DNA of 64,000 nucleotides from Mycobacterium sp. UM_CSW (GTDB lineage: Bacteria > Actinomycetota > Actinomycetes > Mycobacteriales > Mycobacteriaceae). This document shows positions 35,525 to 39,676 of the stretch, piece after piece; the stretch's first letter is position 1, and every line of letters begins with the position of its first letter. The notes below the pieces were generated by a model. It worked only from the letters and a program-made list of their open reading frames with translations. It did no database searches and was not told where the DNA came from. The stretch lies in the NCBI RefSeq assembly GCF_000455205.1, contig NZ_AUWQ01000001.1, forward strand, positions 124,001-188,000, in the 5' to 3' direction. Both the position numbers and the translations under genes were made by a program.

Positions 35525-35764
35525 ATGAGCATCACCGTCTACACCAAGCCCGCGTGCGTGCAGTGCAGCGCCACCTTCAAGGCCATGGACAAGCAGGGCA
35601 TCGCCTACCAGAAGGTGGACATCACGCTGGACGCTGAGTCGCGGGACTACGTGATGGCGTTGGGCTACCTGCAGGCTCCCGTCGTGGTTGCCGGGAACGA
35701 CCACTGGTCGGGTTTCCGCCCCGACCGCATCAAGGCGCTCGCGGAGTCGGCGCTCAGCGCCTGA
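35525..35764 (+). CDS. nrdH: glutaredoxin-like NrdH electron donor
   Basis: A 79-residue redoxin that reduces the class Ib ribonucleotide reductase. The active site is CVQC (residues 11-14) in the MSITVYTKPACVQCSATFKAMDKQGI start, and the C-terminal WSGFRPDRIKAL is the NrdH-specific signature that recognises thioredoxin reductase and NrdE. ATG follows an AAAGGAG ribosome-binding site. It is first in nrdH-nrdI-nrdE, with a long leader between promoter and start. Confidence 0.97.
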   Translation: MSITVYTKPACVQCSATFKAMDKQGIAYQKVDITLDAESRDYVMALGYLQAPVVVAGNDHWSGFRPDRIKALAESALSA

Positions 35765-35804: not shown

Positions 35805-36314
35805 ATGGAGATCACTGGGCCCAACCTCGGTTGGATGAGTGACGACCCGCTTCGTTCGGCTGCGCCGAGCTTGCGATCGTCACTGGTCTATTTCTCTTCC
35901 GTGTCGGAGAACACCCACCGCTTCGTGCAGAAGCTGGGTGTTCCCGCCACGCGGATACCGCTGCACGGGCGCATCGAGGTCGATGAGCCGTATGTGCTGA
36001 TAGTGCCCACGTACGGCGGCGGCAGGGCCACACCGGACATCAATGCCGGGGGGTATGTCCCTAAACAGGTCATCGCCTTTTTGAACGACGAGCACAACCG
36101 GTCGCTGATCCGCGGCGTCATCGCCGCGGGCAACAACAACTTTGGTACCGAATTCGCCTACGCGGGCAACGTCATCTCCCGCAAGTGCGGCGTTCCCTAC
36201 CTTTACCGCTTCGAACTGATGGGGACCCCGGACGACGTGGATGCCGTCCGCGCCGGTCTCGCCGACTTCTGGAAGGAACAGACGTGCCACCAACCGTCAC
36301 TGCAGAGCCTGTAA
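35805..36314 (+). CDS. nrdI: flavodoxin-like NrdI
   Basis: A 169-residue flavodoxin that provides the oxidant for assembly of the dimanganese-tyrosyl radical cofactor of NrdF. It has the FMN phosphate loop [18 protein letters not shown], the VPTYGGG loop and the [39 protein letters not shown] end block. The ATG at 35805 follows GGAAGG. Its end overlaps the start of nrdE by 31 bases, so translation is coupled. Confidence 0.96.
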
Positions 36315-39300
36315 CCGCCGCCACGCATGGGTTGCCCGATGAAACGGACTACCACGCGCTGAACGCGATGCTGAATCTGTACGACGCGGACGGCAAGATT
36401 CAGTTCGACAAGGACGTTCTCGCGGCGCGCCAGTACTTCCTGCAGCACGTCAACCAGAACACCGTGTTCTTCCACAATCAGGACGAGAAGCTCGACTACC
36501 TGATCCGCGAAAACTATTACGAGCGTGAGGTTCTCGACCAGTACTCGCGCAACTTCGTCAAGTCGCTGCTGGACCGCGCCTACGCCAAGAAGTTCCGCTT
36601 CCCGACGTTCCTGGGCGCGTTCAAGTACTACACCTCCTACACGCTGAAGACGTTCGACGGGAAGCGTTACCTGGAGCGCTTCGAGGACCGCGTCGTCATG
36701 GTCGCGCTGACGTTGGCGTCCGGCGACACCGGGCTGGCCGAGAAGCTGGTCGACGAGATCATCGAGGGGCGGTTCCAGCCGGCCACGCCGACGTTCCTGA
36801 ACTCGGGCAAGAAGCAGCGCGGCGAGCCGGTCAGCTGCTTTCCGGCTGGAACACCGGTGGATACACCCGAGGGGCCGCAGGCAATCGAGACTTTGCGCGC
36901 AGGTGACCGGGTGCTTTCGCACGACGGATCCTTCTCCGTCGTCGAGTCCGTCATTGAGAACCCCAACGACCAAGCACTCATCTCGATTTCACACTTCGGG
37001 CACAAGGAACCAATTCTGTGCACTCCCGAGCATCCCATCCTGGTGTGGACCACGCGCGATGTGCAGACACTTATCGATGGTGACGGAGCCGACTCCTTCA
37101 GCGGATTCGTATGGTTGGCTGCCAAAGACATTCGTCCCACCGACTTCATCGTGACGGCAGCGCCGCTGGGGCAACGGTCGCGACGTGTCTACGACCTGAT
37201 GGAGCACGCCGGCGCAGGCGAGTATGAAGAGGTCGACGGCCTGATACGCAAGGTCAACACCGATCGGAAACACCGCAACAAGCAGCGCCATCACATGCGC
37301 TTCGTTTCGGTCAATCGCTATGTTGAGGAGTCGTACGACCTCGGCCTTCTCCTCGGCTGGTACGTCGCCGAAGGCCACATCTCCAAGCGATCGGGGCCTA
37401 CGGGCCGGATTCCCAACGGTATCCACTTCACGATCGGCACGCACGAATTGTTGTACCAGCAGGAGTTGGCCGCGGCATTCAAGCGAGTCTTTGCAGCGGA
37501 CCTGGCGGTCCACCAGAGTGTGTCCGACCAATCGGTGCGCATGATTTGCAACAGCAAGGTCGTTGCGTCGCTGTTTCTCTCCCTGGTCGGCACGGGATAC
37601 CACTCAAAGCGGTTGTCCCACGATGTCTTAACGGCCGGTGAAGAGTTTCAGCGTGGATTGCTGGCCGGTTTGTTCCGCGGAGACGGGTGCAGCACCGCCG
37701 GTGGCATGGTGCTCGACCTGGTGAATCCTGAGCTGGTTGATCAGGTGCAGCTACTGTTGCGCCGCAACGGAATCATGTCCAGGGTCCGTCAATACGTCAA
37801 CCAATCGGGCAATGCGACGGGCCAGGTCTTTGTACCCGGTCTGCCCGGGGCCAACGAAGACTTCATCTTCGACATCGGCAAGAACCTCCACAACTACGTC
37901 GGCCAGAAGGGGACGTCGCGCACGACCTATCGGGTCGTATATGGAAGACACGTGTACGGAATCCGTGAATTGAGGCGCACAGACGATGTTCCCTCAAAGG
38001 TGTACAACCTGCATGTCGAGGACACGCATACGTACACGATTCGCGGCACGGTCGTACATAACTGCTTCCTCTTGCGCATCGAGGACAACATGGAGTCGAT
38101 CGGGCGATCGATCAACTCCGCCCTGCAGCTGTCCAAGCGCGGCGGGGGAGTTGCGTTGCTGCTCTCCAACATTCGCGAGCACGGCGCGCCGATCAAGAAC
38201 ATCGAGAACCAGTCGTCGGGCGTCATCCCGATCATGAAGCTGCTGGAGGACTCGTTCTCCTACGCCAACCAGCTGGGCGCGCGCCAGGGCGCCGGCGCGG
38301 TGTACCTGCAGGCGCATCACCCCGACATCTACCGCTTCCTGGACACCAAGCGGGAGAACGCCGACGAGAAGATCCGGATCAAGACGCTGAGCCTCGGCGT
38401 GGTGATCCCCGACATCACCTTCGAGCTGGCCAAGAAGAATGAGGACATGTACCTGTTCTCGCCGTACGACGTCGAGCGCGTGTACGGGGTGCCGTTCGCC
38501 GACATCTCGGTGACCGAGAAGTACTACGAGATGGTGGACGACGCGCGCATCCGCAAGACCAAGATCAAGGCGCGCGAGTTCTTCCAGACGCTGGCCGAGC
38601 TGCAGTTCGAGTCGGGCTACCCGTACATCATGTTCGAGGACACAGTGAACCGGGCCAACCCCATCGAGGGCAAGATCACGCATTCGAACCTGTGCTCGGA
38701 GATCCTGCAGGTGTCCACGCCGTCGTTGTTCAACGACGACCTGTCGTATGCCAAGGTGGGCAAGGACATTTCGTGCAACCTGGGGTCGCTGAACATCGCC
38801 AAGACGATGGACTCACCGGACTTCGCCCAGACGATCGAGGTGGCGATCCGCGCGCTCACCGCCGTCAGCGACCAGACGCACATCACGTCGGTGCCCTCAA
38901 TCGAGCAGGGTAACAACGATTCCCACGCGATCGGCCTCGGGCAGATGAACCTGCACGGCTACCTGGCCCGCGAGGGCATCTTCTACGGTTCCGAGGAAGG
39001 CATCGACTTCACCAACATCTACTTCTACACGGTGCTCTACCACGCGCTTCGGGCCTCGAACCGCATCGCGATCGAACGCGGCACGCACTTCAAGGGTTTC
39101 GAGAAGTCGAAGTATGCAAGCGGCGAGTTTTTCGACAAGTACACCGAGCAGGTGTGGGAGCCGGCGACCGACAAGGTGCGCCAGCTGTTCGCCGACGCCG
39201 ACATCCGCATCCCCACCCAGGACGACTGGAAGCGGCTGAAGGAATCGGTTCAAGCGCACGGCATCTACAACCAGAACCTGCAGGCGGTGCCGCCCACCGG

Positions 39301-39676
39301 GTCGATCTCTTACATCAACCACTCCACATCGTCGATCCACCCGATCGTGTCTAAGGTCGAGATCCGCAAGGAGGGCAAGATCGGGCGGGTCTACTACCCG
39401 GCGCCCTACATGACCAACGACAACCTGGAGTACTACCAGGACGCCTACGAGATCGGTTACGAGAAGATCATCGACACGTACGCCGCGGCCACCCAGCACG
39501 TGGACCAGGGGCTGTCGCTGACGTTGTTCTTCAAGGACACCGCCACCACCCGCGACGTGAACAAGGCGCAGATCTACGCCTGGCGCAAGGGAATCAAGAC
39601 GCTGTACTACATCCGGCTGCGGCAGATGGCATTGGAAGGCACCGAGGTCGAGGGCTGCGTGTCCTGCATGCTGTAG
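36284..39676 (+). CDS. nrdE: class Ib ribonucleotide reductase large subunit with an intein
   Basis: Makes deoxyribonucleotides with NrdF. The 1130-residue precursor holds a 409-residue intein at residues 185-593; removing it leaves a 721-residue NrdE, close to the normal length. Extein motifs are GEPVS then the redox Cys at the splice point, NLCSEI (radical Cys with Asn and Glu), ISCNLGSLN (second redox Cys), the [18 protein letters not shown] block and the C-terminal GCVSCML redox pair. GTG at 36284 sits after GGAAGGAAC and within nrdI. The intein must be spliced out for enzyme function because the first redox Cys is the +1 residue of the intein junction. Confidence 0.97.
36836..38062 (+). 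mobile_element. NrdE intein with LAGLIDADG-type homing endonuclease
   Basis: A 409-residue in-frame intein. Splicing block A is [13 protein letters not shown] (Cys1), block B is CTPEHPILV (T-x-x-H), block F is [17 protein letters not shown] and block G ends VVHN before the +1 Cys of the extein. Two dodecapeptide motifs of a homing endonuclease, [11 protein letters not shown] and [10 protein letters not shown], lie in the middle, so the element looks both splicing-competent and mobile. It sits at the conserved redox Cys of NrdE. Sample composition is lower in G+C than the extein (35 of 60 at 37501-37560 against 40 of 60 at 38461-38520). H37Rv NrdE has none, as far as I recall. Confidence 0.95.

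Follow-up and report, generated by a model that had tools for sequence, protein, structure and literature searches.

Strain H37Rv has inteins in RecA, DnaB and SufB and is not known to have one in NrdE. Mycobacterial DnaB, RecA and SufB inteins lie, like the one described here, in important genes, but they differ from it in host gene and insertion site. According to PMC6195587, mycobacteria variably carry six intein-containing proteins, and the DnaBi1 intein of M. smegmatis is of class 3 and has no endonuclease, whereas the present intein has class 1 features and an endonuclease. Among inteins of ribonucleotide reductase (RNR), there is the CP1201 RIR1 intein of Corynebacterium phage P1201, for which PMC3653736 reports that functional activity of the gene was demonstrated. 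The P1201 intein likewise interrupts a class Ib NrdE, but at another site, C-extein residue 211. The related Corynebacterium phage Stickynote has a large NrdE insertion at this same residue 211 (locus L136); its annotation goes no further than ribonucleotide reductase large subunit. A search of open-access papers, judged by title and start of abstract, returned no report of an NrdE intein for mycobacteria. Nor was one found in the portions consulted of PMC3653736, PMC5050341, PMC6195587, PMC7765530, PMC2814812 and PMC10643990; words beginning with 'nrd' or 'ribonucle' are absent from the main text of PMC6195587. The words intein, nrdE and Mycobacterium all occur in PMC6145125. The intein that we describe is a new, well-documented case of a mobile element whose kind was already known.

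The window, by which we mean the whole 64,000-nucleotide stretch of Mycobacterium sp. UM_CSW DNA that was analysed, contains nrdE on the + strand. The reading frame from 36185 to 39676 is open throughout extein, intein and extein, and the GTG at 36284 was chosen as the start of NrdE within it. From this GTG, the precursor comprises 184, 409 and 537 residues (1130 aa) and the predicted spliced NrdE 721. The N-extein (36284..36835, +; 184 aa) ends in GEPVS and matches RNR_N and Ribonuc_red_lgN. The C-extein (38063..39673, +; 537 aa) has the +1 Cys as its first residue, matches PF02867 and is followed by the stop codon at 39674-39676 (+). With the class Ib NrdE profile TIGR04170, the sequences flanking the intein reach 1246.7 bits. 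Upstream lie nrdI (35805..36314, +; PF07972 NrdI, E 6e-44) and, before it, an ORF of 79 aa (35525..35764, +) labelled NrdH redoxin-like by eye from its sequence and the gene order. Within the C-extein, a stretch at about 39023-39203 is only 0.88-0.89 identical to the sister allele (G051), with 0.98 in neighbouring stretches, and has low identity to each of the 13 relatives in the comparison; it may be a short tract of recombination or a segment that changes fast locally.

The intein (36836..38062, +) is a stop-free, in-frame insertion of 409 aa that begins with CFPAGTP directly after the N-extein and ends with VVHN before the +1 Cys. Its N-terminal Hint part (about residues 1-110; 36836..37165, +) contains Cys1 and the block B motif TPEH at residues 63-66, and Hint_2 matches residues 1-61. 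The LAGLIDADG endonuclease domain (about residues 161-335; 37316..37840, +) has both dodecapeptides, with E179 and D283 as the acids of motifs 1 and 2, and LAGLIDADG_3 (PF14528) matches residues 270-326 with an E-value of 7e-13. The C-terminal Hint part (about residues 336-409; 37841..38062, +) includes block F and the block G sequence VVHN. In Pfam, Hint_2 and PT-HINT were above their cut-offs and Intein_splicing scored under its own. In NCBIfam, the intein_Cterm profile TIGR01443 matched residues 388-409 with 22.7 bits (cut-off 15.6), and the intein_Nterm profile TIGR01445 remained below its cut-off (14.0 bits vs 24.5, E 0.08), which is a profile threshold and no defining biochemical feature of class 1 inteins. 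The features of that class are present: Cys1, TxxH in block B, a C-terminal His-Asn and the +1 Cys. The preliminary description had placed an intact intein with a LAGLIDADG endonuclease at exactly these coordinates, and the splicing blocks, both dodecapeptides and the profile matches bear it out. It had also called the intein richer in AT than the extein. This is a small difference overall (58.9% GC vs 61.6% and 61.5% in the two exteins) and a clear one at third codon positions (GC3 73.6% vs 90.2% and 94.0%).

The predicted fold agrees with this anatomy. The final AlphaFold2 model, built from 29 sequences of which eight are viral intein relatives, has a mean pLDDT of 85.7; it replaced an earlier model from 25 close homologues in which the Hint part was poor (mean pLDDT 60). 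The best PDB matches by Foldseek are the endonuclease-bearing inteins TliVMA, PI-SceI and PI-PfuI. For the top 10 matches, the TM-scores normalised to the query are moderate (0.49-0.54), with an rmsd of 8-12 Å over two domains. The endonuclease domain matches the folds of I-DmoI, PI-SceI and TliVMA; for I-DmoI, the TM-score (target) is about 0.63-0.76 at a probability of 1.00. Together, these data indicate that 36836-38062 almost certainly encodes a class 1 intein in NrdE with a retained LAGLIDADG homing endonuclease.

By alignment, the +1 Cys corresponds to residue 225 of E. coli R1, a redox-active cysteine of that enzyme, and in NrdE of S. Typhimurium (1pem) to residue 178. The equivalence to Cys225 that had been proposed earlier thus holds. 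The intein splits the N-terminal domain of NrdE from the barrel, immediately before the redox-active cysteine.

Homologous inteins occur in the same gene and at the same site in Mycobacterium, Nocardia and Lolliginicoccus, for example in M. genavense, M. helveticum, M. gastri and N. exalbida. The copies measured have 405-414 aa, are 71-93% identical to the window's intein and share its catalytic residues. A scan of genome contigs with the intein, by a method limited to close relatives, yielded 25 loci (71-93% identity) from Mycobacterium, Mycolicibacterium, an uncultured member of Mycobacteriaceae, Lolliginicoccus and Nocardia; in 24 of them a complete intein occupies this same position, and the other is truncated by the end of its contig. 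With so many relatives at one position, chance is excluded as the source of the window's intein. The nearest relative that we found outside Actinomycetota is in Enterococcus phage vB_Efa29212_3e (Herelleviridae), whose host belongs to another phylum (Firmicutes). Its NrdE intein occupies the same site (GEYVS/CFPEG...VHN/CFLIQ), is 45.7% identical over 409 residues and has both endonuclease acids. The NrdE ORF that bears it (L057) is annotated as a hypothetical protein and ends after GGGVG, soon after the intein. This phage is one of seven phage records matched in the intein search; the other six either align with most of the query at 26% identity or less, or cover just a quarter of it. For scale, the NrdE N-extein matches 548 phage records. 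From inspection of the junctions by eye, two further inteins lie directly before a cysteine of the equivalent motif: one in Tenacibaculum phage PTm1, in a protein annotated as RNR alpha, and one in an uncultured viral RNR that appears class II-like by eye (IMG/VR contig L146). These are in other RNR types and only 25-28% identical to the window's intein.

The key splicing and endonuclease residues are conserved. In a set of 46 intein sequences, 43 of them distinct, C1, T63, H66, E179, D283, H408 and N409 are invariant (43/43) and H398 is kept in 42. The median dN/dS was 0.092 for Hint-N, 0.116 for the endonuclease part, 0.154 for Hint-C and 0.097 for the extein. The endonuclease part is thus under purifying selection, with a dN/dS near the extein value. 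We suggest that NrdE is translated as the 1130-aa precursor with the intein in place and that Cys1, His66 of block B, His408, Asn409 and the +1 Cys would carry out an N-S shift, transesterification, Asn cyclisation and an S-N shift, releasing the 409-aa intein and the 721-aa NrdE. In nrdE alleles that lack the intein, the endonuclease would cut at the junction, whereupon repair would copy the intein in. By such homing, the element would spread sporadically among mycobacteria, nocardias and their kin, and it would have arrived horizontally in the window's lineage. For this account as a whole, a self-splicing, homing and horizontally acquired NrdE intein, we estimate a probability of about 80%. 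Confidence is held to this level because the tree tests described below are uncorrected for their number and because the intein resembles its best match no more closely than the extein does.

To find occupied and empty junctions, we searched one set of 396 Mycobacterium genomes, sampled from a larger group, with degenerate exact patterns for both. The junction was occupied in 34 genomes (about 9%, the window's own included) and empty in 322, none falling in both classes; 40 matched neither pattern, and the C-extein was found in 386. The comparison for intein-free alleles that the preliminary description had proposed thus finds an uninterrupted junction in most of the sample. More widely, among sampled genomes the intein protein was matched in 14 of 301 from the family (five of 31 genera) and in three of 396 from the phylum (all of one genus), with the window's own genome counted each time. 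The nearest intein that was fetched is 93% identical to the window's at the protein level, whereas the closest sampled relatives of the window's NrdE are empty. The intein might also have been fixed in all close species, which would have spoken against recent mobility, but the 29 sampled alleles nearest the window by C-extein DNA are empty without exception (29/29). Occupancy varies within at least one tight group, since an empty allele (L072, genome G007) clusters with two occupied M. asiaticum alleles (L006 and L008; SH-aLRT 100). Two oddities were seen among the occupied genomes. One (G163, locus L056) has two occupied nrdE junctions and 5% contamination; in another (G045, locus L038), a single-contig assembly, the frame of the occupied nrdE is off in both intein and N-extein, perhaps because of assembly indels.

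We compared the history of the intein with that of its host gene in a tree of extein DNA from which 45 nt on each side of the site had been removed. This tree has 30 occupied and 56 distinct empty rows, the latter from 59 loci of the 322 empty genomes (the 30 first listed and the 29 nearest the window). Rows were left out for L024 and L028 (same contig end), L038 (frame off) and the identical G123, G600 and G626. Also left out as repeat contigs were 16 of 30 junction-scan loci and three of 14 family-search loci besides the window's own, as were five of 35 occupied junction sites without a locus; one of these five genomes, G123, was recovered in the family search and dropped as identical. On the extein tree, occupancy requires 18 state changes, at least 11 of them forced by well-supported (starred) branches, although parsimony cannot separate gain from loss. 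An empty allele forms the sister of the window's NrdE (96/89), and the two fall in a group of 13 rows of which 12 are empty (100/93). In the intein protein tree, the window groups with M. genavense (SH-aLRT 98), a clade that the extein data disfavour at an AU p of 0.015, which would fail correction for eight tests. Overall, the intein data rejected four of five extein clades and the extein data two of three intein clades, the remaining extein and intein clades giving p 0.119 and p 0.30; these eight clades were chosen post hoc after the trees had been seen, some are nested, and the p values are uncorrected. Conflict is most marked within Nocardia (p 2e-5 and 4e-4) and in the neighbourhood of Mycobacterium sp. 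1164966.3 (p 2e-4).

Synonymous divergence gives a less simple picture. Nocardia exalbida and N. gamkensis differ by 0.074 in the part of the extein compared and by 0.616 in the intein. Between the window and M. genavense, the closest known copy, the intein divergence is 0.334 and the extein divergence 0.351, and the majority of the pairs reported have a more diverged intein than extein. Because intein divergence is about equal to or above that of the extein, there is no sign of recent transfer from a sampled donor. On the sequence comparisons, the intein came either from a donor outside the sample or in an old transfer, with losses of the intein elsewhere. The mobility put forward earlier is therefore supported, given the patchy occupancy and the tree conflict, whereas these divergences do not point to a recent date. 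That the intein reached the window's lineage horizontally, in this direction, we regard as likely.

The DNA around the site gave some further hints. At a resolution of 120 nt, none of the extein sequence close to the site looks like that of the occupied lineages in the comparison. Occupied alleles, each set against the closest empty allele, have excess codon differences in the 10 codons around the site (Mann-Whitney p 1e-4), and the window ranks 2 of 244 for such differences. They also share synonymous codons, CTC at +3 being seen in 16 of 30 occupied and five of 56 empty alleles; these traits were chosen once the data had been seen. Phylogenetic pairing on a composite flank trait gave 5.2 of 11 pairs the same way and 0.0 the other way (median p 0.06). 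With traits defined post hoc, these data are suggestive only of co-conversion of the flanks around the insertion site.

We also looked for a vector. A single-protein scan of IMG/VR for a vector homologue found none. An alignment scan of IMG/VR gave 34 loci, of which the full-length matches are 23-36% identical in the best segment; the junctions of 19, examined by eye, lie in various genes, and no viral vector for the window's intein was identified among the 34. A search of plasmids gave two weak partial matches only.

A different history would be that of an old intein kept vertically and lost many times independently, with no horizontal entry into the window's lineage. It would fit the divergences, where intein values are at or above those of the extein in most pairs reported and about the same for M. 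genavense, and the inability of parsimony to tell gains from losses leaves room for it. However, it requires losses in the lines leading to all 29 nearest sampled alleles, and it has to contend with the conflict between intein and extein trees in six of eight AU tests (post hoc and partly nested) and with the very different inteins in the near-identical exteins of N. exalbida and N. gamkensis. In addition, homing is what maintains the endonuclease of an intein, and a strictly vertical intein is not expected to keep its endonuclease under selection as strong as that seen here. We therefore consider this history unlikely, and horizontal entry by homing remains our preferred reading. Much further from the evidence is a dead intein that leaves NrdE as a non-functional precursor while another RNR serves the cell. 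Splicing of NrdE is indeed a prediction from sequence, but the key splicing residues are intact and under purifying selection. Furthermore, the whole genome has only one gene over the cut-off for the RNR large subunit (PF02867), in a draft assembly of 186 contigs that is 99.99% complete; a second PF02867 match below the cut-off (E 0.58, with two stops) looks like noise. A dead intein is thus extremely improbable. As only one large-subunit gene was detected in the draft genome, dNTP synthesis in this mycobacterium should depend on splicing of NrdE. This dependence had been proposed before and is supported by gene content, which is indirect evidence.

It was also proposed that splicing might be sensitive to redox state. 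In its fullest form, the intein would have been domesticated as a redox or metal switch, in which oxidation of Cys1, the +1 Cys or extra cysteines stalls NrdE splicing and curbs dNTP synthesis. Thiols serve as catalytic residues, the +1 Cys has a redox role of its own, a single RNR large subunit was found in the genome, and three non-catalytic cysteines, Cys62 (beside block B), Cys238 and Cys285, are invariant in all 43 distinct actinobacterial copies. The intein of M. tuberculosis SufB is reportedly a second analogy, besides DnaBi1. In M. smegmatis, oxidative insults reversibly inhibit the DnaBi1 intein, whose catalytic cysteine enters an intramolecular disulfide on oxidation (PMC6195587). 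By contrast, the same paper reports no redox response for DnaBi2, so a mycobacterial origin does not itself predict redox sensing. Since 151 of the 409 alignment columns are invariant anyway, the invariance of the three cysteines is a weak argument, and the Enterococcus phage homologue has Ser, Val and His in their places. Sporadic occurrence and absence from most relatives are unlike a needed regulator, and selfish homing explains the conservation of the endonuclease. It is consequently improbable that these cysteines and the catalytic thiols make NrdE splicing redox- or metal-responsive, a reading drawn by analogy with DnaBi1, and domestication as a switch is just as doubtful. If it were true, a mobile element would gate dNTP supply through the cell's only detected RNR large subunit.

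Apart from this question, the data document a family of full-length inteins whose endonuclease is apparently kept intact and which, in this mycobacterium, sits at the redox cysteine of the sole RNR large subunit that was detected. Its empty and occupied alleles, found side by side, make it a good natural system in which to study homing in mycobacteria and to ask whether an essential redox enzyme is spliced conditionally. The genome also holds a second intein, in DnaB as judged by eye (G000:C5:87274-87342, - strand; locus L088), with the junctions LRESG/CLTAST...GVHN/SLEQDADVV and a score above the TIGR01443 cut-off.
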